Shown piece by piece: positions 2 through 47,046 of a DNA stretch of 64,000 nt; the first letter of the stretch is position 1, and each line of letters starts with the position of its first letter. Source of the stretch: Candidatus Saccharimonadota bacterium (GTDB lineage: Bacteria; Patescibacteriota; Saccharimonadia; Saccharimonadales; Saccharimonadaceae); assembly GCA_017506895.1 (NCBI GenBank), contig JAFWBV010000005.1, positions 1-64,000 of the forward strand, in the 5' to 3' direction. The position numbers and the translations under genes are program-made. The notes beneath the pieces are model-generated. The model did not search any database, had not been told where the DNA came from, and was given only the letters and a program-made list of their open reading frames with translations.

Positions 2-1387
2 CAACCGTCTGGTGAATACAGAAATGTGATTAATTTTATTGCTGTGGCAAACCCACAACCGGAACTAGGGCCTGTGCCATGTGAGCCAGGTGCGATTTGC
101 TATAACATGAATGCTTTGGATAATTATGAAGGGACGATGGCGAAACAGTACGAAGATGACGAAGGTAATCCTTTGCATGATGGGAGTACGGTAACATTAA
201 GAGCATCTAATTTTAGCCATGAAGGTCATGGATTTGCTGGTTGGAGTACGTCTTATGATTACGAAGATCCTTCAGCTAAGTTTTATGGTCCAAATCAGAC
301 TATTACAGTTACGCCTGAAATTGATACGGAAGGTTTGTCATTATATGCTATCTGGATTCCGTCGGCTGGGACAATGCAGTCTGATGGGGCAGGTATATGT
401 TCGGCTTTGCCGTATATACACTCAGACATTGATTATTCTTTAGACCATGATCTTATTAACTACTTCATTGCGGCGTTGACGGATGAAAGAGATGGCCAAA
501 CTTATGCGATTGCTAAAATATCGGAAACATCAGGAGATGCTGGTGCATGTTGGATGCTGGAGAATTTGAGATTAGATAATACGGCTAGAGGAAATATGGA
601 CGGCTCTTTGGCGCAAGGGTATTGGACTACTGGTAGTGTTGAATATTTTGCAGGATTAGCTTTGCCAGAAGGAGCTGCGTCGTTTCAACCTAACTACGCT
701 AACTACGAATCAGGAAATAATAGTTTATATTCATTAGTTTTTTCTCAGAGTAAAATATTTGTTGGTGGTTCTTCTTACAACCCAGCTCCGGTGCGTATAC
801 CACGTTATAATAATCAAAACACTGCTTATCGTGATGAAGATGCTGATGGGACTGGTAACACTTATTCGTATGGTAATTATTACACGTGGAATGCTGCACT
901 TGCGGATTTTCCACAGGATACAGCAAATATGCATTTTGATGGAACTTCTATTTGTCCAAGAGGTTGGCGTTTACCTTTTGGAGGAACTAATCCTTATACA
1001 GGCCCAATTATGAGGAATCATCAAGTGATTAATGGTTCGATTTCTGCGTCAAATACTTCTTCTCACGTTTTGGGGCGCGTATTGATGGCACCTCTTGATG
1101 ATAGTCGTAATGTATTTGAAGAAACCGACACTAATTATCGTGGCCTTACTGCTTCTCAAATGTTTAGGAGTTTTCCATACAATTTTGTTTATTCTGGTTC
1201 TATAAAAAATGGTGCAATAGGAGAGCGTGGAAGTAATGCTGGCTATATTACTGCATCGGTACCAGACCAACAAGGTCATAGTGCAAAATATTATCATTTC
1301 TCTATGAGTAGTGGGACGTTTTATCCAGGTTCTGGCACTAGAGACAAATATACTGGTAGTACAATCCGATGCGTCATAGAGAAATAA
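2..1387 (+). CDS. FISUMP-domain surface protein, 5' end outside window
   Basis: The reading frame is open back to the first bases, so the start lies outside the window; an internal GTG at 26 is not a credible start. The visible part begins in the end of the N-terminal stalk module shared with the proteins at 16702 and 21409. It continues with a Listeria-Bacteroides (Flg_new/InlB B) repeat containing GFAGWS and LYAIW, then a C-terminal FISUMP domain with DGQTYAIAKI, CWMLENLRL, YGNYYTW, CPRGWRLP and a final TIRC. The paralogs have signal peptides, so this protein is probably exported. Its ligand is unknown. Codon use in the FISUMP tail is AT-rich, unlike the tail of the 21409 gene. Confidence 0.85.
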   Translation, partial: QPSGEYRNVINFIAVANPQPELGPVPCEPGAICYNMNALDNYEGTMAKQYEDDEGNPLHDGSTVTLRASNFSHEGHGFAGWSTSYDYEDPSAKFYGPNQTITVTPEIDTEGLSLYAIWIPSAGTMQSDGAGICSALPYIHSDIDYSLDHDLINYFIAALTDERDGQTYAIAKISETSGDAGACWMLENLRLDNTARGNMDGSLAQGYWTTGSVEYFAGLALPEGAASFQPNYANYESGNNSLYSLVFSQSKIFVGGSSYNPAPVRIPRYNNQNTAYRDEDADGTGNTYSYGNYYTWNAALADFPQDTANMHFDGTSICPRGWRLPFGGTNPYTGPIMRNHQVINGSISASNTSSHVLGRVLMAPLDDSRNVFEETDTNYRGLTASQMFRSFPYNFVYSGSIKNGAIGERGSNAGYITASVPDQQGHSAKYYHFSMSSGTFYPGSGTRDKYTGSTIRCVIEK

Positions 1388-4942: not shown

Positions 4943-6258
<1,316 letters not shown>

Positions 6259-6266
6259 TACTTTAC

Positions 6267-7424
6267 TTAACATATTAACATTGAATCTCCATAGCTTAAG
6301 AAATTATACTTTTGCTCGATGGCGTGATCGTAAGCGTGTTTTAGATTGTCCCATCCAGCAAAAGCGGAAGCTAGCATTAGCACAGTAGATTTTGGTGCGT
6401 GAAAATTGGTCAGTAACGCATCGACAAGCTGAAATTCAAAACCTGGGTAAATAAAGATATCGTCTTCGCCAGAAGTTTTGCCAGTCTTAGCGTAATATTC
6501 CAGAGTACGAGCTACGGTAGTGCCTACTGCGATTATACGTCGGGCGGGTCCTGCCAGACCTTCTCCCTCCCCAAAATTTTTGCTTTGCAAAACATTTTGG
6601 GATCCCTTTCCAGGTCTGTCACCCGCCCGTGTAATACTCTTAATAGTATCTATCGTGTCTTCTGGGATGTGGTACCATTCGCTATGCATTTTGTGGTCTT
6701 CGATTTTGTCGGTACGTATTGGCAAAAATGTCCCGAGCCCTACGTGAAGCGTAAGATACTTTATAATCACACCTTTCTTTCGTAATCTTTCTAAAAGTTC
6801 TTCGGTCATATTAAGTGATGCGGTAGGAGCAGCGGCAGAGCCCATATTTTTGGCCCAAACCGTCTGATAGCGTTTTTTGTCATCTTCTGTAGCATCGCGA
6901 TGGAGATAGGGCGGCAAGGGAACAGTGCCATATTGTTCGGCAAGTTCGGCAAGTGGCACACCTGATTCTACTTCCGCAATGCCGTTACCTAAGATGCGCT
7001 TGATAATAATGTTTTCTCGAGGCGCGTCGCCGACGCCTGTCGTTACAGGGTCGGCGCGCTCGTTCTCGTCGTGACTCCGAATCCTCTCGAAAACACTATT
7101 GTCAAGCACCAGCTTGTCGCCGTCGTGAAGCCTACCACGATACATCACACGCTGTGGTTCATCGCCGTGTTTTTCGAGCACCACTAGTTCGCGTTTGCGG
7201 CCGTCTGGGAGCTTACAAAAGAGACGAGATTGCATTACTCTTGTGTCGTTCAGGATCAAAACGTCGCCCGGATTTAGAAAGTCGTCTAGCTGTTTATAAT
7301 ACGAATCATTGATTTTGCCGGTTTTGCGATCTAGCACTAATAGACGTGTCGAACCACGTTCTTTGGGTGGGAATTTAGCTATTCTATCTTCCGGTAAGTC
7401 ATAATTATAATCAGATACAAGCAT
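6267..7424 (-). CDS. queA: S-adenosylmethionine:tRNA ribosyltransferase-isomerase with two insertions
   Basis: Adds the epoxy-cyclopentanediol precursor from SAM to preQ1-tRNA. Family motifs are YDLPEDRIA near the N-terminus, DVLILNDTRVMQSRLF, VPLPPYLHR, YQTVWAKNMGSAAAPTASLN, LHVGLGTFLPI and FYPGF-like IYPGFEF plus NFHAPKSTVLMLASAFAG. Two GC-rich insertions are visible: a B-type copy at about residues 108-141 (7002-7103) and an A-type copy at about 263-296 (6537-6635), the latter reading ITRAGDRPGKG to LAGPARRI. Both lie between conserved blocks. TATAAT ends 9 bases before the ATG, so the leader is nearly absent. Confidence 0.96.
   Translation of the reverse strand: MLVSDYNYDLPEDRIAKFPPKERGSTRLLVLDRKTGKINDSYYKQLDDFLNPGDVLILNDTRVMQSRLFCKLPDGRKRELVVLEKHGDEPQRVMYRGRLHDGDKLVLDNSVFERIRSHDENERADPVTTGVGDAPRENIIIKRILGNGIAEVESGVPLAELAEQYGTVPLPPYLHRDATEDDKKRYQTVWAKNMGSAAAPTASLNMTEELLERLRKKGVIIKYLTLHVGLGTFLPIRTDKIEDHKMHSEWYHIPEDTIDTIKSITRAGDRPGKGSQNVLQSKNFGEGEGLAGPARRIIAVGTTVARTLEYYAKTGKTSGEDDIFIYPGFEFQLVDALLTNFHAPKSTVLMLASAFAGWDNLKHAYDHAIEQKYNFLSYGDSMLIC
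6537..6635 (-). repeat. Type A palindromic element inside queA
   Basis: Arms GGGCGGGTCCTGCC and GTCACCCGCCCG, with the AAAATTTTTGC...GCAAAACATTTT centre also seen in the intergenic copies. In coding frame it encodes TRAGDRPGKG, then a Lys/Asn/Glu-rich centre, then LAGPARR. The whole copy is stop-free on the coding strand. Confidence 0.85.
7002..7103 (-). repeat. Type B palindromic element with inverted flanks inside queA
   Basis: The core contains CCTGTCGTTACAGG, related to the GCCCGTCGTTACGGGGC core of the obgE copies. The outer arms GATAATAATGTTTTC (left) and GAAAACACTATTGTC (right) are a queA-specific near-perfect inverted repeat. The coding peptide is SHDENERADPVTTGVGDAPRE, similar in character to the RDNGSEIVSEPRNDGRERS peptides of obgE. 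Confidence 0.75.
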
Positions 7425-16701: not shown

Positions 16702-18654
16702 TTATTCTGGAATATAGAAACATCTAACTGCGAAGCCGCGGAATTTATCGTCATTATTAGTGCCCGGATAAACGTTTGTTTCATTTATCACAAATCTATA
16801 TGCTGTACCGTTGGTGCTAGGCGTAGCTGTCCAATAATAGCCATTTCCGCCTCTATTACCGACCGCATTTCCATTAAAACGACCGGAATATACGAAATTA
16901 TTAGGGAATTTACGAAATGCTTTTGTGGCGGTATCGCCATTAGCATTGACGGTACCACTATAATATGAGTTGCCATCGTTGGCCGTGTCTTGATGGGCGG
17001 TCTTTACTTGACTCATTGTGTAATAACCTAATGTATAATAATCTCGCCAGTTTGATTCATCTCCATCAACATTAATCGACGATGTAACGCTACCGCCTTG
17101 TGGCAAAAACCAATTTGCTGGGCAAATTGCTGTGTCAACTAACGATAAATTATCCGTGGCGTAATGAATAGTATTTGCTAGAGCCGCTGCCCAGGAATAG
17201 TAATTCCCGTATCCATAGATGCTGGCATTAGCAGTGGTAGAATATGTAGTGCTAGCCGTCAGGCTTGTAGCCCTAGTTGATGAAGCAGTATTAATGTTAT
17301 TATATTTTGGTATACGAATCTGTGGATTGTCTGCACTATTAATATTTATAGTATTATTACTGCCATCTATACTATATAAACTATTTGAAGAGAATGAACT
17401 CGAGAAACCACTACTCTCAGCATTAGCTAAACCAACAAAACTACCATAATTAGTGCCTGTACCCGAATACGTACCATAGCCTCTCGACAAAGCGGCATCG
17501 CCTGCTCTAGTAGTGTATTGAGACTCTAGGCGCAAGTTTTCAATCATCCAACACCGGCCATCCGCGAGTCTTGCAACGGCATAGGTTTGACGATCTCGTA
17601 AATCAGTGAGTGCGGTAACACTAGCCATTGTCGCTTTTCCACTTTGTGGGGCTCTGGTAAGGTTGCCACAAACATTTTCGATATCGTGTTGAAGGGTCCC
17701 GGTGGACTTTACCCACACGGCATATAGTGAAAGGCCACCATTGCTACCGCTATATTGCCCCGCGGTAAACGTTATCTCTTCATTTGGGCCATAGTAATTG
17801 CCGCTATAATCATATTTGTCATTCCAACCAGCGAAACCATAACCATCCCGACTAAAGTTAGAAGCTAAAAGAGTAGCTGATGTTTGACTGGACGTAAGTT
17901 GTTGAACTGGTCCGCCGCTACTAGTGGTCATTGAACCGGTAGCCATATTAGTATTCGGATAGTAACCAATAAAGCCTGATGGAGTGGTTTGTGGCTGAGC
18001 TGGGATTTCGTTGGCTGGGTGGACTAAGGTAAATCTAACTTTGCCAACATAGGTGCCAGTCTCCTGAGTGGTACTAATATAAGATTGATAAGTAAGATTG
18101 AGAGAAGTACCGACAGCTGGGCTCGTAGAAGGAGCATCTGTGGCAGAATCGCGATGTGCGATTTTGGTATAAGTGGCTGGAACCAACGAATAATTACTGT
18201 AACCATTGTCGATTGTGGCAGCGTAAGTGCCGGTCGTAACTTGGTTTAACTTCATTGCCCAAGAAGAAGTGCCAGTTGTATTAGTGCCGGTGTTAAACTC
18301 TGCTGGACTTGCTCCGGCGCCTTGTTGAAGCATTTTATTGTTGCCTAATTCATCATTTGAATAACCGATGGCATAAATTGCAAAACCATCGGTGTCGTTA
18401 CATATAGTCTTTAGCGTAGTGGAGCCAATGTTTTGCTTACTAGTGCCGGCAGGAACTTCTGTGGTATGAGCAGTGTTGACGGTAGCAGTTAGAGTACAAG
18501 CTGCGCCAACAATAACAGACGCAGATGCGGTAGTCGTTTCAGCCGTAGCGGGTACCGATGAAAGAATCATCCCGATAAGTGCCACTATTAGAAAACTAGA
18601 AAGACATATAAAATAATCACTAATATTTAGATAATGCATTTTTACCCTACTCAT
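16702..18654 (-). CDS. Secreted FISUMP-domain surface protein
   Basis: A 650-residue exported protein. A hydrophobic signal segment (about 15-37, ending PATAE) is followed by the shared stalk module (CTLTATV, ICNDTDGFAIYAIGYSND, GTYVGKVRFTLVHP). Next is a Listeria-Bacteroides repeat (GYGFAGWNDKYDY, LYAVW) and a FISUMP domain with RDRQTYAVARLADGRCWM, IENLRLES, YGNYYSW, CPANWFLPQGG and a final FAVRCF. TATAAT lies 7 bases before ATG 18654, while AGTAGGG could serve ATG 18639, so the start has two readings. Codons in the FISUMP tail resemble the rest of the gene. Confidence 0.88.
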   Translation of the reverse strand: MSRVKMHYLNISDYFICLSSFLIVALIGMILSSVPATAETTTASASVIVGAACTLTATVNTAHTTEVPAGTSKQNIGSTTLKTICNDTDGFAIYAIGYSNDELGNNKMLQQGAGASPAEFNTGTNTTGTSSWAMKLNQVTTGTYAATIDNGYSNYSLVPATYTKIAHRDSATDAPSTSPAVGTSLNLTYQSYISTTQETGTYVGKVRFTLVHPANEIPAQPQTTPSGFIGYYPNTNMATGSMTTSSGGPVQQLTSSQTSATLLASNFSRDGYGFAGWNDKYDYSGNYYGPNEEITFTAGQYSGSNGGLSLYAVWVKSTGTLQHDIENVCGNLTRAPQSGKATMASVTALTDLRDRQTYAVARLADGRCWMIENLRLESQYTTRAGDAALSRGYGTYSGTGTNYGSFVGLANAESSGFSSSFSSNSLYSIDGSNNTININSADNPQIRIPKYNNINTASSTRATSLTASTTYSTTANASIYGYGNYYSWAAALANTIHYATDNLSLVDTAICPANWFLPQGGSVTSSINVDGDESNWRDYYTLGYYTMSQVKTAHQDTANDGNSYYSGTVNANGDTATKAFRKFPNNFVYSGRFNGNAVGNRGGNGYYWTATPSTNGTAYRFVINETNVYPGTNNDDKFRGFAVRCFYIPE

Positions 18655-21408: not shown

Positions 21409-23277
21409 ATGACAAAAAAGATTTCTATGAGTTTGTTAGGCTCTATGTGTCTTTTTGTACTTTTGTTCTTGTTTACTTCTAATGTGGTTTTTGCGGATGA
21501 TAATAATTCAGTTGTAGATTTAATTAATATTACAGTACCACAGTCTTGTTCAGTAGAAGGTATTATTGCTAGTGGGGGAGAACATACTAAGACAGTACAG
21601 AATAATCAATACTATAGTGAAATTGGAACTACTACATTCAAAACATATTGTAATGATAGTGGTGGTTATGCTATTTATGCTATTGGTTATAGTAATGATG
21701 AATATGGTAATACTTTAATGAAACATAGTACAAACAGTAGTTTAGATTTTGATACAGGAACTAATACTTCTGGCAATACTTCTGATTGGTCTATGAAGTT
21801 AAGCCCGGTGACTGGGACTTATGCTCCGACAATACATTCTGATACTAATGGAGCTTTTAGTGCTTATCATATAGTACCTAATACTTATACTAAGGTTGTA
21901 TCTTTTCCTTCAAATACTGATTTACCAGCAACTGGAGTTAATGCGACTGGTTCTGGATTTACTTCTACTTATGCTGCTTGGATATCTGCTACACAAGGCG
22001 CTGGAACCTATACTGGGAAAGTTAAATATACTTTAGTGCATCCGAGTACGGAAGTGCCACTACAACCACAGACTACCGCGCCTGGATATATTGGATACTA
22101 TCCAAATGGTGGCAATGTAGAAGGCACAATGGGTAGACAATCAGCTGCCGATGGTAACCCGGTACAATTATTTGCTTCAAACTTTAGTAGAGAAGGTTAT
22201 GGCTTTGCTGGTTGGAGTGATGCTTTTGATTACGCTACTAACGCTAATGCTCACTTATATGGCCCAAATGAAGATATCACCGTCCCTACTGGCACTACAG
22301 CTAATGGATTAAGTCTCTATGCTGTATGGATTAAATCAGCTGGTACTATGCAAGGCTGGTCTGGTTGTGGCTCTATGCAAGCTGCTACCTATAATAACGA
22401 AGGGGATTCAGATGAATCTACTTGGTCTATCACAGCTGGCCTAAACAATATTACGGCATTAACTGATAGTAGAGATAATGATACTTATGCTATTGCAAAG
22501 CTTACGGATGGAAAATGTTGGATGATAGAAAACTTAAGATTAGCCGATAAAGACAGTAATAACAATGATGTAATATTATCTAGCACTAATACCAATAACC
22601 CATCATTGCCACTTACCAATGTATATGATACCAACACTACATCAAACCACTTATCTTCAACTTCAAGTAAAGCTTATAATGCATCTACCGCTCCAGATGG
22701 TTGGTGTACTACTCGCTCCGCCGCCTGTGATGACCAGTCTAGAATCCGTACAGATAATACCGCGAATAGAGCAACTTATACAACCACTACCAATATGACA
22801 TCCCATGCAGCCAATCTCTATGCTTATGGTAACTATTACAACTGGTACTCTGCTACTGCTGGTAATGGGAAATATGCTAATGGCTCTGGTTATACTACCC
22901 CAGGAGATTTATGTCCTACTGGCTGGCATCTACCCACTGGTACTGGCTCTGGTGAATTCGGTTTATTAAGTAAAAGCCTGGGCGGTTATAAAGATGGTTT
23001 TAATGTAGCACAGGCAATGTCCAGTTCTACTTCCCCTACAGTTACTATAATGCTACAGAGACTTCGCCATTTCCCCAATAATCTGCTTTACTCGGGCAAC
23101 GTTAGCGGCGCTTCCATCTACGATCGAGGCGGTAGCGGTCTCTTTTGGTCGTCTACGGCTTACAATAGTAATATCGCCTTCTACTTGCTCTTCAACTCCA
23201 CTTACGTTAGCCCAGGCTCCTCGACCACCAACTACAAGTACCACGGGAGGACAGTCCGCTGTATAGCTAGTTCGTAA
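21409..23277 (+). CDS. Secreted FISUMP-domain surface protein with candidate variable tail
   Basis: A 622-residue exported protein. Signal peptide about 1-29 (ends VVFA), stalk module (CSVEG, YCNDSGGYAIYAIGYSND, GTYTGKVKYTLVHP), Listeria-Bacteroides repeat (GYGFAGWSDAFDY, LYAVW) and FISUMP domain with DNDTYAIAKLTDGKCWM, IENLRLADK, YGNYYNWYS, CPTGWHLPTG and a C-terminal GLFWSST ... GRTVRC. AAAGGAGG precedes the ATG. The last 230 or so bases are visibly richer in G and C than the rest, with long runs of codons ending in C or T. That is what a retroelement-diversified variable region would look like. Confidence 0.88.
   Translation: MTKKISMSLLGSMCLFVLLFLFTSNVVFADDNNSVVDLINITVPQSCSVEGIIASGGEHTKTVQNNQYYSEIGTTTFKTYCNDSGGYAIYAIGYSNDEYGNTLMKHSTNSSLDFDTGTNTSGNTSDWSMKLSPVTGTYAPTIHSDTNGAFSAYHIVPNTYTKVVSFPSNTDLPATGVNATGSGFTSTYAAWISATQGAGTYTGKVKYTLVHPSTEVPLQPQTTAPGYIGYYPNGGNVEGTMGRQSAADGNPVQLFASNFSREGYGFAGWSDAFDYATNANAHLYGPNEDITVPTGTTANGLSLYAVWIKSAGTMQGWSGCGSMQAATYNNEGDSDESTWSITAGLNNITALTDSRDNDTYAIAKLTDGKCWMIENLRLADKDSNNNDVILSSTNTNNPSLPLTNVYDTNTTSNHLSSTSSKAYNASTAPDGWCTTRSAACDDQSRIRTDNTANRATYTTTTNMTSHAANLYAYGNYYNWYSATAGNGKYANGSGYTTPGDLCPTGWHLPTGTGSGEFGLLSKSLGGYKDGFNVAQAMSSSTSPTVTIMLQRLRHFPNNLLYSGNVSGASIYDRGGSGLFWSSTAYNSNIAFYLLFNSTYVSPGSSTTNYKYHGRTVRCIASS
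23077..23265 (+). other. Candidate DGR-type variable region
   Basis: Between SG and RG the codons are nine in a row of NNY form (N V S G A S I Y D), and after WSST another nine NNY codons follow (A Y N S N I A F Y). Composition shifts to GC-rich here relative to upstream, and the equivalent tails of the two other FISUMP genes in the window do not show this. Placement at the extreme C-terminus of a FISUMP/DUF1566-like fold matches known DGR targets. No reverse transcriptase or template repeat is in the window. Confidence 0.45.
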
Positions 23278-23390
23278 TGTAGTTCGTTTTTTCTGTGTTT
23301 TTTTGCAAAATCAAAATTGTCTTTGGGTAATTATGGTTTGCAAGAATAATAGCGAGCTACTTGTATTGATGCGTCATTTTTTTCATTGAA

Positions 23391-25794: not shown

Positions 25795-26586
25795 ATGTTA
25801 ATTGATTCACATTGCCATTTACATGATCGAGAATTTTTTGCCGAAGAGCAGGCCGAAGAAATGATAGAACGTGCCCGCAAGGTTGGTATTAAAAAGATTA
25901 TCTGTATCGGAACTTCACACCAGGATTCGCTCGCGGCTCGCGATTTTGCAAATAATCATAATGATGTTTATTGGACATATGGCATACACCCCGAGGCTAC
26001 AAGTGAGTTTCATTCGGGGTCGCGTCCGGCCGGCCCATCGCCATGGGCGGCCGGCGCTAACTCTCGCGCTGCCGCGCTCCGAAATCCCCCGAATCAAAAC
26101 TCACTCGTAGCCATCGGTGAGATCGGTCTGGATTACCATCATGATAGCGCCAGCCGAAATGCGCAGATAAAATTGTTTGAAGAGATGCTGCAAATTGCGA
26201 CAGATAATGATTTACCGGTTTCGTTTCATGTACGAGAAGCATTTGATGATTTTTTTCCTGTGGTGGAGAATTTTCCTTCAATTCGTGGCGTAGTACATTC
26301 TTTTACGGATAGTAAAAAAGTTTTGAAAAGAATTTTGAATGAAACAGAATTCTATGTCGGCGTAAATGGCCTTGCTACATATTCAACTTTGCCTTTGCCG
26401 CCACTAGATAGAATTATGCTCGAAACAGATGCGCCGTTCTTGACTCCTGTGCCATTTCGTGGTATAATTAATGAACCGGCCTATATAAAAGAGATAGCCG
26501 AGTGGCTGTCTCAAAGAATAGGCTTAGAGTTCAAAATTATAGAGGCGGAGACCACAAAAAATGCAAGAAAACTATTCGGAATATAA
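25795..26586 (+). CDS. tatD: TatD-family metallo-DNase with in-frame insertion
   Basis: Metal-dependent 3'-5' exonuclease/hydrolase family. IDSHCHLHD at the N-terminus, YGIHPE, AIGEIGLDYH, FHVREA, GVVHSFT and LETDAPFLTP are the expected metal-site motifs in order. Residues about 67-106 are a C-type insertion (25995-26112) reading SGSRPAGPSPWAAG then SRAAALRNPPNQ, lying directly before the conserved VAIGEIGLDY strand. TATAAT lies 6 bases before the ATG. Confidence 0.93.
   Translation: MLIDSHCHLHDREFFAEEQAEEMIERARKVGIKKIICIGTSHQDSLAARDFANNHNDVYWTYGIHPEATSEFHSGSRPAGPSPWAAGANSRAAALRNPPNQNSLVAIGEIGLDYHHDSASRNAQIKLFEEMLQIATDNDLPVSFHVREAFDDFFPVVENFPSIRGVVHSFTDSKKVLKRILNETEFYVGVNGLATYSTLPLPPLDRIMLETDAPFLTPVPFRGIINEPAYIKEIAEWLSQRIGLEFKIIEAETTKNARKLFGI
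25995..26112 (+). repeat. Type C palindromic element with inverted flanks inside tatD
   Basis: Core CCGGCCGGCCCATCGCCATG with its complement, then the invariant TCTCGCGCTGCCGCGCTCC. Left flank GGCTACAAGTGAGTTT and right flank AAAACTCACTCGTAGCC are a tatD-specific inverted repeat. The right flank encodes the conserved SLVAIG, so the left flank appears to be the inverted copy. Confidence 0.9.
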
Positions 26587-27677: not shown

Positions 27678-28913
27678 ATGATTTATCTTGACCACGCAGC
27701 TGCAACGCCAGTTGATTCTAGGGTTTTACGGGCAATGGAACCGTATTTTACTGATGATTTTTTTAATCCTTCTGCGGCATATTTGCCGGCCAAAAAAGTT
27801 GCGGCTGACTACGAACAAGCAAAAGGCGTAATTGCGCATGCGATTGGAGCAAAAGCGTCTGATCTTGTTATAACTGCCGGAGCGACTGAAGCGAATAACT
27901 TGGCATTTACGGCCATTCTAGACGGACAAATATCTCACTCGGCGCCGCGTCCGGCCGGCCCGTCGGCACGGGCGGCCGGCGTTAAATCTCGCGCTGCCGC
28001 GCTCCGAAATGCGCCGAGTCAAGATATTTGTCCAGTCTTATTTCTCGCAACTGAACATGATTCGGTACGACGAGTTGCAGAACATTATGGCGGCAAATCT
28101 ATAAACGTCTTGCCGAATGGCTTGGTTGATTTGAATGATTTGAGAGCTAAGATTACTGACGAAACTGAACTTATTTCTGTAGCTTTGGTGAACAATGAGC
28201 TAGGGACAATTCAGCCGTTAGCAGAGATTTCTGGTATCATTAAAGAGATTAAGCTAAATCGTATGAAACGGGGGATTAAACGACAACTACTTTTGCACTC
28301 TGATGCTTCCCAAGCTCTAAACCTACTAGATATTAACGTGGCCAGACTAGGTGTAGATTTAATGACTCTGAATTCAGCAAAGATTTATGGCCCAAAGGGT
28401 ATTGGTGCGTTATATGTATCACATGATGCTAAATTGAAGCCAATATCATATGGTGGTGGACAAGAAAAAGGTTTGCGTTCGGGGACTGAAAATGTACCGG
28501 GCGTAGTTGGATTTGCTAAAGCGGTAGAACTCACAAAAAATCATTTAAATGGCAACCGAAAAAAATATGCAACATGGCGGAAAATGCTTTTGGCCGAATT
28601 ACAGGGGTATGAATTAATCAACAAAAAGCATGTGCTTGACAATTTTATTGTTTTATGCTATAATGGTATAGATGCGGAACGATTAGTGTTCCTTCTTGAA
28701 GAAAAAGGTGTTTATGTTTCCACTGGTGCAGCCTGTGCGGCTAGTAAGGGTATACGATCACATGTTTTAAAGGCGATTGGACTTTCCGACGAGCAAATTG
28801 CTGGTTCACTAAGACTTACGCTTGGAGAAACTAACACCGAACAACAAATCCATCAAGTTGCAGAAATTATTAATAGTGCAGTAAAAACGGAATACAATAG
28901 AATTAGAGCTTAA
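27678..28913 (+). CDS. Cysteine desulfurase (NifS/IscS class) with in-frame insertion
   Basis: PLP enzyme delivering sulfur from cysteine for Fe-S clusters or thio-tRNA. YLDHAAATPVD, TAGATEANNLAF, ATEHDSV, HSDASQAL, the PLP lysine in NSAKIYGPKG, RSGTENVPG and the active Cys in STGAACAASKG are present. Residues about 81-120 are a C-type insertion (27921-28037). The mnmA gene 3 kb downstream needs this type of sulfur donor, so it likely serves s2U34 synthesis. TATAAT lies 6 bases before the ATG. Confidence 0.92.
   Translation: MIYLDHAAATPVDSRVLRAMEPYFTDDFFNPSAAYLPAKKVAADYEQAKGVIAHAIGAKASDLVITAGATEANNLAFTAILDGQISHSAPRPAGPSARAAGVKSRAAALRNAPSQDICPVLFLATEHDSVRRVAEHYGGKSINVLPNGLVDLNDLRAKITDETELISVALVNNELGTIQPLAEISGIIKEIKLNRMKRGIKRQLLLHSDASQALNLLDINVARLGVDLMTLNSAKIYGPKGIGALYVSHDAKLKPISYGGGQEKGLRSGTENVPGVVGFAKAVELTKNHLNGNRKKYATWRKMLLAELQGYELINKKHVLDNFIVLCYNGIDAERLVFLLEEKGVYVSTGAACAASKGIRSHVLKAIGLSDEQIAGSLRLTLGETNTEQQIHQVAEIINSAVKTEYNRIRA
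27921..28037 (+). repeat. Type C palindromic element with inverted flanks in cysteine desulfurase gene
   Basis: Core CCGGCCGGCCCGTCGGCACG and invariant TCTCGCGCTGCCGCGCTCC. Flanks GGACAAATATCT (left) and AGATATTTGTCC (right) are exactly complementary over 12 bp and specific to this gene. The peptide SAPRPAGPSARAAG then SRAAALRNAPSQ matches the other C copies in frame. Confidence 0.92.
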
Positions 28914-31943: not shown

Positions 31944-33080
31944 ATGAAAACTGTTTATGCTGGTATGAGTGGCGGAGTAGATTCTTCGGTGGCGGCTTTG
32001 CTCCTAAAAGAGCAAGGCTATCATGTTGTTGGAGTTTATATGAAAAATTGGTCACAAGATTTACCTGGTATGAAATGCCCATGGGCAGATGACCTAGCTG
32101 ACGCCAAACGTGTTGCAGTTAAGCTTGGTATCGATTTTGAAGTTTGGGATTTTGAAAAAGAATATCGTGAAAAAGTAGTTGATTATATGCTCAGGGAATT
32201 TCGAGCAGGGAACACACCAAATCCCGACGTGATGTGCAATCAAGAAATAAAGTTTAAATTGTTTTATGAAAAAGCAATGGAGGCTGGGGCTGATTATATT
32301 GCTACGGGGCACTATGCAAGAGTCCGGCAATTATCTTCTTCTTGTGCTCAGTTATTGCGGGCTGTGGACGAGAATAAAGACCAGACATATTTTCTTTATC
32401 GAATTTCTGATGAAGCATTAGCCCACACGCTATTTCCGATTGGCGAAATGATGAAGCCCGACGTAAAAAAATATGCAGAAAAACATGGACTGCATAATGC
32501 CTACAAAAAGGAGTCTATGGGTGTCTGCTTTGTGGGAGAAGTGGGGATGAAAGATTTTCTCAAAGAATACATCGACACAAATCCGGGCGAGATTCGTGAA
32601 ATTGAAAGCGATAAAGTTCTGGGCTACCATGAGGGGGCCGTGTTTTATACCATCGGACAAAGACATGGGCTATATCTTGAAGGCGAAAAAGGAGTAGTAA
32701 ACGAAGGTTTGCCGTATTATGTTGTTAAAAAGGACATAAAAAAGAATATTGTTTATGTGTCAAAAAACTTGAATCATCAAGCCATCTGGACGAAAGAACT
32801 AAAGCTGAAAGAGCTTTTCTTTCGTTCGGGGTCGCGTCGCTCGCGCCCGTCGCCACGGGGCTCGCGCGCTAACTCTCGCGCTGCCGCGCTCCGAAATTCC
32901 CCGAACCAAAAGAAAAGCTCTTCCGTATTCGTACGTCTACGTCATCGGGCTCCACTTATTCCGGCTGTTTTTGATAGCGATACCCTGCATTTTGAAAACG
33001 AAATCAAGAGACCGGCTAGCGGACAATCCGCCGTATTATATGATAACGAAATTTGTCTTGGCGGTGGAATTATAGCATAA
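31944..33080 (+). CDS. mnmA: tRNA-specific 2-thiouridylase MnmA with in-frame insertion
   Basis: Thiolates U34 of Lys, Glu and Gln tRNAs. The PP-loop SGGVDSS is at 9-15, MCNQEIKF holds the catalytic Cys, ATGHYARV follows, and the second Cys lies in GVCFVGEV near residue 193. Start 31944 is set by the YAGMSGGVDSS spacing and TATAAT 6 bases upstream. Residues about 287-327 in the C-terminal beta-barrel are a C-type insertion (32806-32925). Confidence 0.95.
   Translation: MKTVYAGMSGGVDSSVAALLLKEQGYHVVGVYMKNWSQDLPGMKCPWADDLADAKRVAVKLGIDFEVWDFEKEYREKVVDYMLREFRAGNTPNPDVMCNQEIKFKLFYEKAMEAGADYIATGHYARVRQLSSSCAQLLRAVDENKDQTYFLYRISDEALAHTLFPIGEMMKPDVKKYAEKHGLHNAYKKESMGVCFVGEVGMKDFLKEYIDTNPGEIREIESDKVLGYHEGAVFYTIGQRHGLYLEGEKGVVNEGLPYYVVKKDIKKNIVYVSKNLNHQAIWTKELKLKELFFRSGSRRSRPSPRGSRANSRAAALRNSPNQKKSSSVFVRLRHRAPLIPAVFDSDTLHFENEIKRPASGQSAVLYDNEICLGGGIIA
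32806..32925 (+). repeat. Type C palindromic element with inverted flanks inside mnmA
   Basis: Inner core GCTCGCGCCCGTCGCCACGG matches the type B core of obgE, followed by the invariant C-type TCTCGCGCTGCCGCGCTCC. This links the B and C groups. Flanks AAGAGCTTTTCTTT (left) and AAAGAAAAGCTCTT (right) are a perfect 14-bp mnmA-specific inverted repeat. Confidence 0.92.
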
Positions 33081-44580: not shown

Positions 44581-46059
44581 TTACCAGTCTTCAACAAGAG
44601 TAAATTCTTTACCGGCAATCGAAATAATAGATTCGGGCTTGGCGCCTTGCGTCGTAAGTTCGGCACGAATTCCCATTTTTTTCATAATATCTCGCAAGCG
44701 GTTAACGCTGGCATAATTATTTAGATCTGTACGTCGAGCAAATTTTTCGATTTTTTCGCCAGTGACCCTGAAATGGTCTTCGTCTAATTTTTCGACTTGC
44801 CAAGTATCCTTAAGGGCGGCTGGACTGAGAGATATCGTCGGTAGCTCGTTCGAAGAACCCTTTCTCGAGCCGCTTCGCTCGCGCCCGTCGTTACTGGGCT
44901 CGCTCGCTATCTCGCTCCCGTTGTCGCGAACGCTCTCGAAAGGGTTACTTCTCACGAGCTTCGACAGCTCTCTGAGTAGCTCAGTCAAGCCCTGATGGGC
45001 GCTGGATGAAATGGTAAATATCTTGGCGTCTGGATTTTTGGCGAGAACGGATGACATCTGCATCTTGATAATATCTTCATCGACGCCTTCACACTTGGTT
45101 AATGCTACGATTTCGGGTCGGTTAGCAAGATCGGAATACTTCTCAAGCTCATTTCTAATAGTTTGATAGGCTTCGCCGGCGTCGTCATTATAAATGTCAA
45201 TTAGATGTAATAGGACCGCCGTTCGTTCAACATGACGGAGAAAATCATGGCCAAGGCCTTTACCATCAGAGGCTCCCTCAATTAGTCCTGGAATATCCGC
45301 AATGAGTAAATCTTGACCGTCTATAGTCGCTACGCCGAGATTAGGCGTAATAGTAGTAAATGGATAGTCGGCGATTTCGGGTTTTGCGTTTGAGACCACG
45401 GAAAGGAAAGTGGACTTACCAGCGTTTGGAAGGCCGACCAAACCAACATCAGCCATGGATTTTAGTTCTAATTCTGCCGTAAATTCTTCGCCAGGTTCGC
45501 CAACTTCGGCGATGATTGGGGCTTGACGGGTACTGGATTTGAAATGGGCGTTGCCGAAGCCGCCGGAGCCGCCATGGGCGATGATTACTTCGGCGCCGTC
45601 TTCGGTAAGGTCAGCGATTAAGTTCTTCTTCTCGACGGGTCCTGCCGAGACGGCTTCAGCGATTAAGTTCTTCTTCGAATCGCTTCGCTCGCGCCCGTCG
45701 TTACGGGGCTCGCTCACTATCTCGCTCCCGTTGTCGCGAATGTTCTCAGAAGAACTTAATTCGCTGATTCTATACACGACTGTACCGACGGGGACGTCGA
45801 CGATTAGGTCTTTGCCAGAGCGGCCGGCGGAGCGCTGGCCGGAGCCATTTTTGCCGTCTTCGGCTGTAAGTATCGGGGTAAAACGAAAGTCAACCAATGT
45901 GTTAGTGTTGCGGTCGGCACGGAAAATAATGTCGCCACCTTTGCCACCATCGCCACCATCTGGGCCACCTTTAGGAATATAAATCTCATGGCGAAAAGAA
46001 ACGGCACCATCACCACCTTTGCCGGCTTTTAGACTAACTTTCGCAATATCAACAAACAT
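44581..46059 (-). CDS. obgE: GTPase Obg with two in-frame insertions
   Basis: Ribosome-assembly GTPase. The Obg fold is glycine-rich (GGDGAVSFRHE, GGPDGGDGGKGGD), G1 is GLPNAGKST (about 208), G2 TTITPN, G3 DIPG, and the OCT domain ends the protein (FARRTDLNNYASVNRL). Two B-type insertions with a solo A piece lie at residues about 98-150 (within the Obg domain before LIADLTEDG) and about 366-405 (between G domain and OCT). TATAAT lies 6 bases before the ATG. The insertions make it 492 residues against a usual 430. Confidence 0.96.
   Translation of the reverse strand: MFVDIAKVSLKAGKGGDGAVSFRHEIYIPKGGPDGGDGGKGGDIIFRADRNTNTLVDFRFTPILTAEDGKNGSGQRSAGRSGKDLIVDVPVGTVVYRISELSSSENIRDNGSEIVSEPRNDGRERSDSKKNLIAEAVSAGPVEKKNLIADLTEDGAEVIIAHGGSGGFGNAHFKSSTRQAPIIAEVGEPGEEFTAELELKSMADVGLVGLPNAGKSTFLSVVSNAKPEIADYPFTTITPNLGVATIDGQDLLIADIPGLIEGASDGKGLGHDFLRHVERTAVLLHLIDIYNDDAGEAYQTIRNELEKYSDLANRPEIVALTKCEGVDEDIIKMQMSSVLAKNPDAKIFTISSSAHQGLTELLRELSKLVRSNPFESVRDNGSEIASEPSNDGRERSGSRKGSSNELPTISLSPAALKDTWQVEKLDEDHFRVTGEKIEKFARRTDLNNYASVNRLRDIMKKMGIRAELTTQGAKPESIISIAGKEFTLVEDW
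44843..44960 (-). repeat. Type B palindromic element with inverted flanks inside obgE (copy 2)
   Basis: Core GCTTCGCTCGCGCCCGTCG ... GGGCTCGCTCGCTATCTCGC. Flanks AGCTCGTTCGAAGAACCCTTTC (written here in part: AAGAACCCTTTC) and GAAAGGGTTACTTCTCACGAGCT-like sequence (GAAAGGGTTACTT) are inverted copies specific to this place. It encodes VRDNGSEIASEPSNDGRERS, close to copy 1 of the same gene. Confidence 0.9.
45611..45676 (-). repeat. In-frame 45-bp duplication carrying a solo type A end in obgE
   Basis: A 21-bp direct repeat beginning TCAGCGATTAAGTTCTTC occurs at 45611-45631 and 45656-45676, 45 bp apart, giving KKNLIA twice in the protein. Between them is TCGACGGGTCCTGCCGAGAC, the outer arm of type A, encoding SAGPVE. 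It looks like a duplication that captured, or was caused by, an A-type end. Confidence 0.8.
45656..45767 (-). repeat. Type B palindromic element with inverted flanks inside obgE (copy 1)
   Basis: Core CGCTTCGCTCGCGCCCGTCG, then TTACGGGGCTCGCTCACTATC. Flanks AGCGATTAAGTTCTTCT and AGAAGAACTTAATTCGCT are complementary apart from one extra base. The coding-side right flank encodes the conserved NLIAD of Obg, so the other flank is the added inverted copy. Confidence 0.92.
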
Positions 46060-46296: not shown

Positions 46297-47046
46297 ATGA
46301 TTAAGTTTACGATAGTCACACTCTTTAGAGAGGCAATTGAGCCATATCTTAAGTGTTCAATGATGGAAAAAGCCGTCCGAAAGGGGCTGGCAGAATTTGA
46401 TTTTGTGAATTTGCGCGAATTTGGACTTGGTCCGCATAAATCGGTTGATGACACTCCTTACGGGGGCGGAGATGGGATGCTTCTTAGATGTGAGCCAGTT
46501 TTTGCGGCAATTGAACAAATAAAAGCTTCCGATCCCGATGCGAAAGTAATTATTCCTACCCCCGTAGGTGAAATTTGGAATCAAGCGATTGCTAGAGATT
46601 TTGCATCGCATTCGGGGTCGCGTTCGTCCGGCCCGTCGGCACGGGCGGACGACGCTAATTCTCGCGCTGCCGCGCTCCGAAATACCCCGAATTGCGATAC
46701 AAACATCTCTAGTCATTACATCATTTTATGTCCACACTACGAAGGTTACGACGAAAGAATACTTTCGATTGTGGACTATAAGATTTCACTAGGCAAATAT
46801 GTTTTGACTGGTGGGGAATTACCGGCCCTAATTATTATTGACTCTATTGTGCGGTTAATCCCAGGAGTGCTTGGCGGGGAACAATCGGCCGAAATTGAAT
46901 CTTTTTCCGATGGAGATAATCTAGAATACCCACAATATACTCGTCCAGAAGATTTTAGGGGTATGAAAGTGCCGGAAATTCTATTATCTGGCAACCACGG
47001 CGAAATTGCCAAATGGCGCGAAGAGCACTCTGGCAAATCTGAATAA
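46297..47046 (+). CDS. trmD: tRNA (guanine37-N1)-methyltransferase with in-frame insertion
   Basis: SPOUT methyltransferase making m1G37. MIKFTIVTLF at the N-terminus, DDTPYGGGDGM, CPHYEGYDER in the SAM-binding knot, and YVLTGGELPALIIIDSIVRLIPGVLG are diagnostic. Residues about 97-140 are a C-type insertion (46588-46716) between the conserved QAIARDFA helix and the IILCPHYEG strand. Since the knot starts just after it, the insertion must loop out. TATAAT (46285-46290) lies 6 bases before ATG. Confidence 0.96.
   Translation: MIKFTIVTLFREAIEPYLKCSMMEKAVRKGLAEFDFVNLREFGLGPHKSVDDTPYGGGDGMLLRCEPVFAAIEQIKASDPDAKVIIPTPVGEIWNQAIARDFASHSGSRSSGPSARADDANSRAAALRNTPNCDTNISSHYIILCPHYEGYDERILSIVDYKISLGKYVLTGGELPALIIIDSIVRLIPGVLGGEQSAEIESFSDGDNLEYPQYTRPEDFRGMKVPEILLSGNHGEIAKWREEHSGKSE
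46588..46716 (+). repeat. Type C palindromic element with inverted flanks inside trmD
   Basis: Core GTCCGGCCCGTCGGCACGGG with compensating changes (GTCCG/CGGAC instead of CCGG/CCGG), invariant TCTCGCGCTGCCGCGCTCC. Flanks CTAGAGATTTTGCATCGCA and TGCGATACAAACATCTCTAG are trmD-specific inverted repeats with a few mismatches. Confidence 0.9.

Follow-up and report, generated by a model that had tools for sequence, protein, structure and literature searches.

The FISUMP locus and its variable C-terminus

The DNA described here is a stretch of 64,000 nucleotides (the window) that sits on a 190-kb contig of a Saccharibacteria genome assembled to 714,826 bp in 12 contigs and 92% complete. Its central feature is an open reading frame (21409-23277; Table 1) whose product matches both profiles of the FISUMP domain, TIGR02145 at 72.8 bits (cut-off 41.65) and PF09603 at 42.3 bits (cut-off 33.9), and bears a hydrophobic N-terminus resembling a signal peptide. 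The named relatives of this protein are encoded by Candidatus Saccharibacteria metagenome-assembled genomes (MAGs), many of them from the gut of sheep, goat, yak and cattle. FISUMP profile matches number 15 across the genome, and two further FISUMP genes that end within the window, one of them cut by the contig start, served for comparison. Two AlphaFold2 models had a pLDDT of 44 and 45, too low to show a C-type lectin fold, and a search by sequence for a solved structure related to the FISUMP domain returned none that was convincing.

An initial annotation had proposed, from GC content and codon pattern over 23041-23277, that the end of this gene is the target region of a diversity-generating retroelement (DGR). 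The compositional features on which it drew are borne out: the gene end has a GC content of 0.53, as against 0.40-0.41 in the other two FISUMP genes ending in the window, and each of the nine-codon runs N V S G A S I Y D and A Y N S N I A F Y is made up entirely of NNY codons. Over the last 64 codons (~195 bp) NNY codons reach a frequency of 0.77, compared to 0.65 in the gene body, and the AT-richer ends that had been ascribed to the two comparison genes are likewise confirmed, with their lower NNY content (Table 1). Concerning extent, the variable C-terminal end is real, but its boundary is better placed at ~23083-23277, since the identity between template repeats (TRs) and variable repeats (VRs) in related genomes begins at the [F/L][V/L]YSG codons and extends beyond the stop codon. 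The VR so delimited reaches the stop codon, and thereby the C-terminus of the target protein. Within it, 20 codons correspond by homology to AAY codons of the template; 19 of these are NNY, four still being AAY, and a conserved scaffold (YSG..G.S..RG..G..WSST......A..L.......V.PG....KY.GR.VRC) lies between them. The conserved segment that spans the stop codon may have the role of an IMH.

Composition by itself goes only part of the way. The 19 of 20 NNY codons at AAY-homologous positions, tested against the frequency in the gene body, give a binomial p of just 0.002, so the NNY signal is modest and no more than suggestive. The rise in GC content over the last 230 bp would also agree with a base-composition quirk or a horizontally acquired GC-rich end unrelated to any DGR; this explanation is refuted by TR/VR homology, as the tail recurs in two other genes of the same genome and in the TR/VR pairs of relatives, and it is almost certainly wrong. 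The decisive signal is the comparison of paralogues, not NNY composition.

Table 1. Features of the FISUMP locus, comparison genes of the window, and accessory genes at DGR loci of related genomes
Feature	Position	Strand	Basis or remark
FISUMP-domain (PF09603/TIGR02145) protein, probable DGR target (variable) protein	21409..23277	+	622 aa; profile matches, paralogues on C3 and C2
FISUMP domain match	22735..23265	+	Genome-wide PF09603 search; the VR is the C-terminal third of the domain
Probable variable repeat (VR)	23083..23277	+	Aligned to TR/VR pairs from related genomes
Probable 3' homing segment (IMH-like)	23250..23306	+	Conserved end GTCCGCTGTATAGCTAGTTCGTAA plus ~30 bp beyond the stop, common to the C3 copy
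Comparison gene, a FISUMP paralogue lacking the VR signature	16702..18654	-	GC 0.41, NNY 0.67
Comparison gene, a FISUMP paralogue cut by the contig start and lacking the VR signature	2..1387	+	GC 0.40, NNY 0.59
Accessory gene directly upstream of DGR RT	L088:5275-6300	-	259-341 aa family
Accessory gene directly upstream of DGR RT	L083:3053-4069	-	259-341 aa family
Accessory gene directly upstream of DGR RT	L096:3227-4240	+	259-341 aa family
Accessory gene directly upstream of DGR RT	L080:6556-7335	-	Same family
Accessory gene directly upstream of DGR RT	L081:6661-7494	-	Same family
Accessory gene directly upstream of DGR RT	L082:2781-3602	-	Same family

The window also carries repeats of other kinds. 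A family of ~95-nt, GC-rich palindromic repeats occurs on the plus strand at 26007-26101, 27932-28026, 32819-32913 and 46605-46699, its members showing 74-83% identity to a reference copy. The first two, at least, are in frame within protein genes, one tatD-like (25795-26586) and one cysteine-desulfurase-like (27678-28913), where they add a peptide like RPAGPSARAAGVKSRAAALRN to the host protein, reminiscent of the protein-coding palindromic elements of Rickettsia. A second family, with the related GC-rich core TTCGCTCGCGCCCGTCGTTAC.GGGCTCGC, is found at 7013-7060, 44860-44942 and 45670-45752.

Adenine-directed variation among paralogues

BLAST searches of the genome with the VR recovered two further tails, at C3:20725-20956 (78%) and C2:13722-13931 (73%), each the C-terminus of another FISUMP gene, such that three dispersed paralogues share the tail (the window gene being the C5 copy). 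The form SG..GAS..RG....W.S......VRCIAS was absent from the other readable FISUMP C-termini of the genome, two matched loci being unreadable. The alignment of the window gene with the C3 copy begins shortly before the ATG and extends ~30 bp beyond the stop codon. With codon columns classed by the templates of four relatives, residues of the two differ at 19 of the 20 columns homologous to TR AAY codons, compared to 7.9% of the body (Fisher 6e-19) and to 11 of the 43 other VR columns (Fisher 1.8e-7). By codon position, the differences at these 20 codons number 14, 16 and 2 at the first, second and third, respectively; changes thus occupy 30/40 of first and second positions and 2/20 of third positions (p=1.7e-6), the opposite of the pattern in the body. 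The same excess at AAY columns is displayed by the C5/C2 (17/20) and C3/C2 (18/20) pairs, and over the three copies NNY is retained at 59 of 60 AAY-homologous codons. These differences between paralogues are adenine-directed variation, recognisable without the TR itself. Neither non-VR FISUMP tail of the window displays an A bias against its best template, the mismatches of the 16702-18654 tail being equal at A and non-A positions (0.44/0.44).

In principle, such tails could be diversified without reverse transcription, by diversifying selection of the ordinary kind or by gene conversion between paralogous FISUMP genes, and recombination partners do exist in a paralogue family with this many profile matches. 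However, neither process explains why changes fall at the first and second positions of AAY codons while the third stays nearly fixed as C or T and the scaffold is conserved, and this alternative is strongly disfavoured, to the point of being very improbable.

Third positions are no more alike between the C5 and C3 VRs than between the gene bodies (11/63 and 89/559 differences, respectively), and hence recent rewriting of both from a single TR is not indicated. Set directly against the TR of another species, the window VR shows an A bias that is only weak (0.39 vs 0.23, p=0.03) because constant sites have diverged, and this comparison was dropped as a line of evidence.

Complete diversity-generating retroelements in related genomes

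Five other genomes of the same genus (G042, G017, G153, G147 and G061) each combine, in one locus, a reverse transcriptase (RT), an accessory gene and an Asn-rich TR with a FISUMP gene, and the C-terminus of the latter can be aligned to that of the window gene. Over these five, 108 of 113 TR/VR mismatches fall on TR adenines (21/21 in G042, 20/21 in G017, 30/30 in G153, 19/23 in G147 and 18/18 in G061); a sixth locus, L096 of G119, carries the same RT and accessory gene with its TR at a contig end, and was left out of this count. The TR of G153 encodes YSGNVNGASINNRGSNGNYWSST..., which belongs to the same subfamily as the window VR, YSGNVSGASIYDRGGSGLFWSST. YVDD and IGNLTSQ, corresponding to the YxDD and GxxxSQ motifs of DGR RTs, are invariant in the six RTs, which adjoin the TR/VR. 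The best solved match of the genus RT, and the sole solved chain at E <1e-10, is the 328-aa RT of 8ub7 (4e-29), namely that of the Bordetella phage BPP-1 DGR. The accessory proteins bear an N-terminal HTH_3-like domain in three of six cases, and beyond this no clear family was found for the six; presumably, they may correspond to the MutS-like or Avd-like accessory proteins of other DGRs.

Because sister genomes pair this VR family with an AAY-bearing TR and an RT, and because the three paralogues diverged at AAY codons, the 3' end of 21409-23277 is very probably the VR of a DGR, as initially annotated. By analogy with known DGRs, reverse transcription of a TR transcript would introduce errors opposite adenines, and the cDNA so mutated would supplant the VR, homing being initiated at the conserved 3' end of the latter (PMC8144416, PMC10907252). 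The predicted outcome is a reshuffling of ~20 residues on the C-terminal binding face of a secreted or surface protein, with one or more TRs perhaps acting in trans on several loci.

A candidate for such action in trans is seen in G147, a 1.1-Mb MAG (CAMVEA contigs). The stretches of it that were examined, L083, L202 and L203 among them, contain three RT/TR loci and 27 FISUMP tails of VR-like form, of which three are doubtful. The template of L203, as the best fitting of these three, fits 14 tails, 13 of which lie on other contigs and one beside the template; against these 14, 309 of 806 template adenines are changed, compared to 103 of 1840 other positions. Trans action by L203 is inferred, as unassembled templates may serve some of the 14 tails. 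For the G147 VR subgroups ending in IRCVASGA and IRCLMGS, no fitting TR was found in the stretches examined.

The genus also harbours DGRs of other types. L095 (G139:C8) is a second, unrelated DGR with another RT and another target (TR 5694-5828, VR 6366-6500; 14 of 15 mismatches at template A), and its integrase-like and lysin-like neighbours suggest a prophage. A second TR/VR class with the scaffold STPLSG...W.SST...MY is present at L207 (G017:C19) and L209 (G153:C47), adjoining further RTs that match the same RT profile.

The missing reverse transcriptase and template

The lack of an RT in the window, recorded by the initial annotation, extends to the entire assembly, in which none was found by PF00078 (E<=0.1) or by a custom DGR-RT profile of the genus (E<=10) that scores 1e-135 to 1e-222 in four control genomes. 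A TR was sought in the same genome by BLAST with the VR, by BLAST with the TR of a relative and by a degenerate AAY pattern allowing 3 mismatches, with none found; the pattern recovered the TRs of G042, G153 and G147, and likewise no TR in G097 or G011. An accessory profile, used without a separate positive control, found no accessory gene in the assembly. The anticipated template copy beside a DGR RT was therefore not encountered in the genome as assembled. Of the two absences that the initial annotation had set jointly against its own reading, that of TR and RT holds in the 92%-complete assembly, but that of A-directed variation, as judged from paralogues and not from strains, does not. As the assembly is incomplete, the RT may still be present in the genome.

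The system is nonetheless common in the genus, as 94 of 174 genomes carry the RT, 61 of 110 among near-complete ones. Twenty-two genomes have a DNA match to the window VR, 10 with an RT and 12 without, and some of the latter are 97-100% complete, although two of the 12 (G107 and G130) look spurious or out of frame. Together with the RT, TR and accessory gene not found in the assembly and the unhomogenised C5 and C3 VRs, these RT-less genomes favour the view that a DGR was once present, that its RT and TR were lost, and that the three VRs are frozen, diversified alleles. This view agrees on the DGR origin of the tail and differs only on whether the system persists. The intact reading frames and the near-complete retention of NNY codons speak against it, and it is possible, though held at distinctly less than even chances.

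Two further observations argue for a locus that was missed rather than lost. In G061, two VRs differ at only 1 of 63 third positions, compared to 130 of 584 in the gene bodies (p=9e-6), which points to recent rewriting from a template missing in the assembly of G061, where no assembled TR of the window VR's subfamily was found. Furthermore, RT loci are overrepresented near contig ends, as the TR of L096 also illustrates: among 30 loci on contigs of known size, a subset of the best matches, 12 lie <3 kb from a contig end where 7.8 would be expected (p=0.025), and with contigs >12 kb only, 8 of 24 against 3.1 expected (p=0.007). Because RT loci cluster at contig ends and the G061 VRs are homogenised, the TR/RT locus of the window's genome was slightly more likely missed by assembly, in a gap or in binning, a reading given marginally better than even chances; its true loss is plausible at a lower level.

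Another arrangement, considered unlikely, would have the VR-FISUMP arsenals of the genus normally served in trans, with many cells carrying targets but no RT or TR. Diversification would then be switched on and off, proceeding only while an RT/TR cassette is present, whether through gain and loss of the cassette or through its provision by some other element. A phage-borne donor of the RT was also considered and rejected, as none of the viral RTs found exceeds 40% identity to that of the genus, which leaves no close viral source. Genomes that carry VRs without an RT pose a practical puzzle for MAG-based surveys of DGRs that require an RT near the repeat.

Significance and comparison with known systems

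Saccharibacteria are generally regarded as epibionts of other bacteria, and little is known of how they recognise their partners. Surface proteins rewritten by a retroelement, with many targets per template, offer a testable candidate for partner recognition or escape from phage, and the role hypothesised here is probably in attachment to the bacterial host or in evading phages.

The elements of this system are already known individually, namely Fib_succ_major targets (PMC4159848), DGRs of CPR bacteria (PMC8144416) and targets served in trans (PMC10907252). A literature search, with Paul 2017 (a key CPR paper) outside its coverage, found no paper on FISUMP DGR targets in Saccharibacteria. The DGRs of CPR/Patescibacteria comprise RT clade 2 and the CPR/DPANN group 5F (PMC8144416, PMC10907252), and those described here share with Patescibacteria DGRs the CPR host, the DGR-type RT, an A-directed C-terminal VR and the presence of several DGR loci per genome. 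Clade 2 DGRs are reported chiefly from aquatic biomes, with targets in which no domain is recognisable (PMC8144416), and the most common targets in CPR are stated to be CLec-AAA ATPases (PMC10907252). By contrast, in a comparison based on features, the targets here are FISUMP proteins with apparent signal peptides, and the named relatives of the genus are largely MAGs from the ruminant gut. Domains of the DUF1566 or Fib_succ_major (= FISUMP) type are known among DGR targets of the human microbiome, with nine Fib_succ_major targets listed in 2014 (PMC4159848). These share the same domain, TM7 is not mentioned there, and in the present case the family has multiplied within genomes, its members lying scattered away from the TR.

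Dispersed targets that match one TR, at loci without RT or TR, are shared with Thiohalocapsa PB-PSB1 (PMC10907252). The latter has 15 targets, and the single Saccharibacteria MAG discussed above has 27 VR-like tails (three doubtful), 14 of which fit a single TR. With the DGR of Bordetella phage BPP-1, the source of 8ub7, the genus shares A-specific mutagenesis and an RT for which it is the best solved match. The BPP-1 DGR functions in phage tropism switching from a compact cis locus with a small Avd; unlike it, the DGRs of this genus are chromosomal, their targets are dispersed and their accessory protein is larger.
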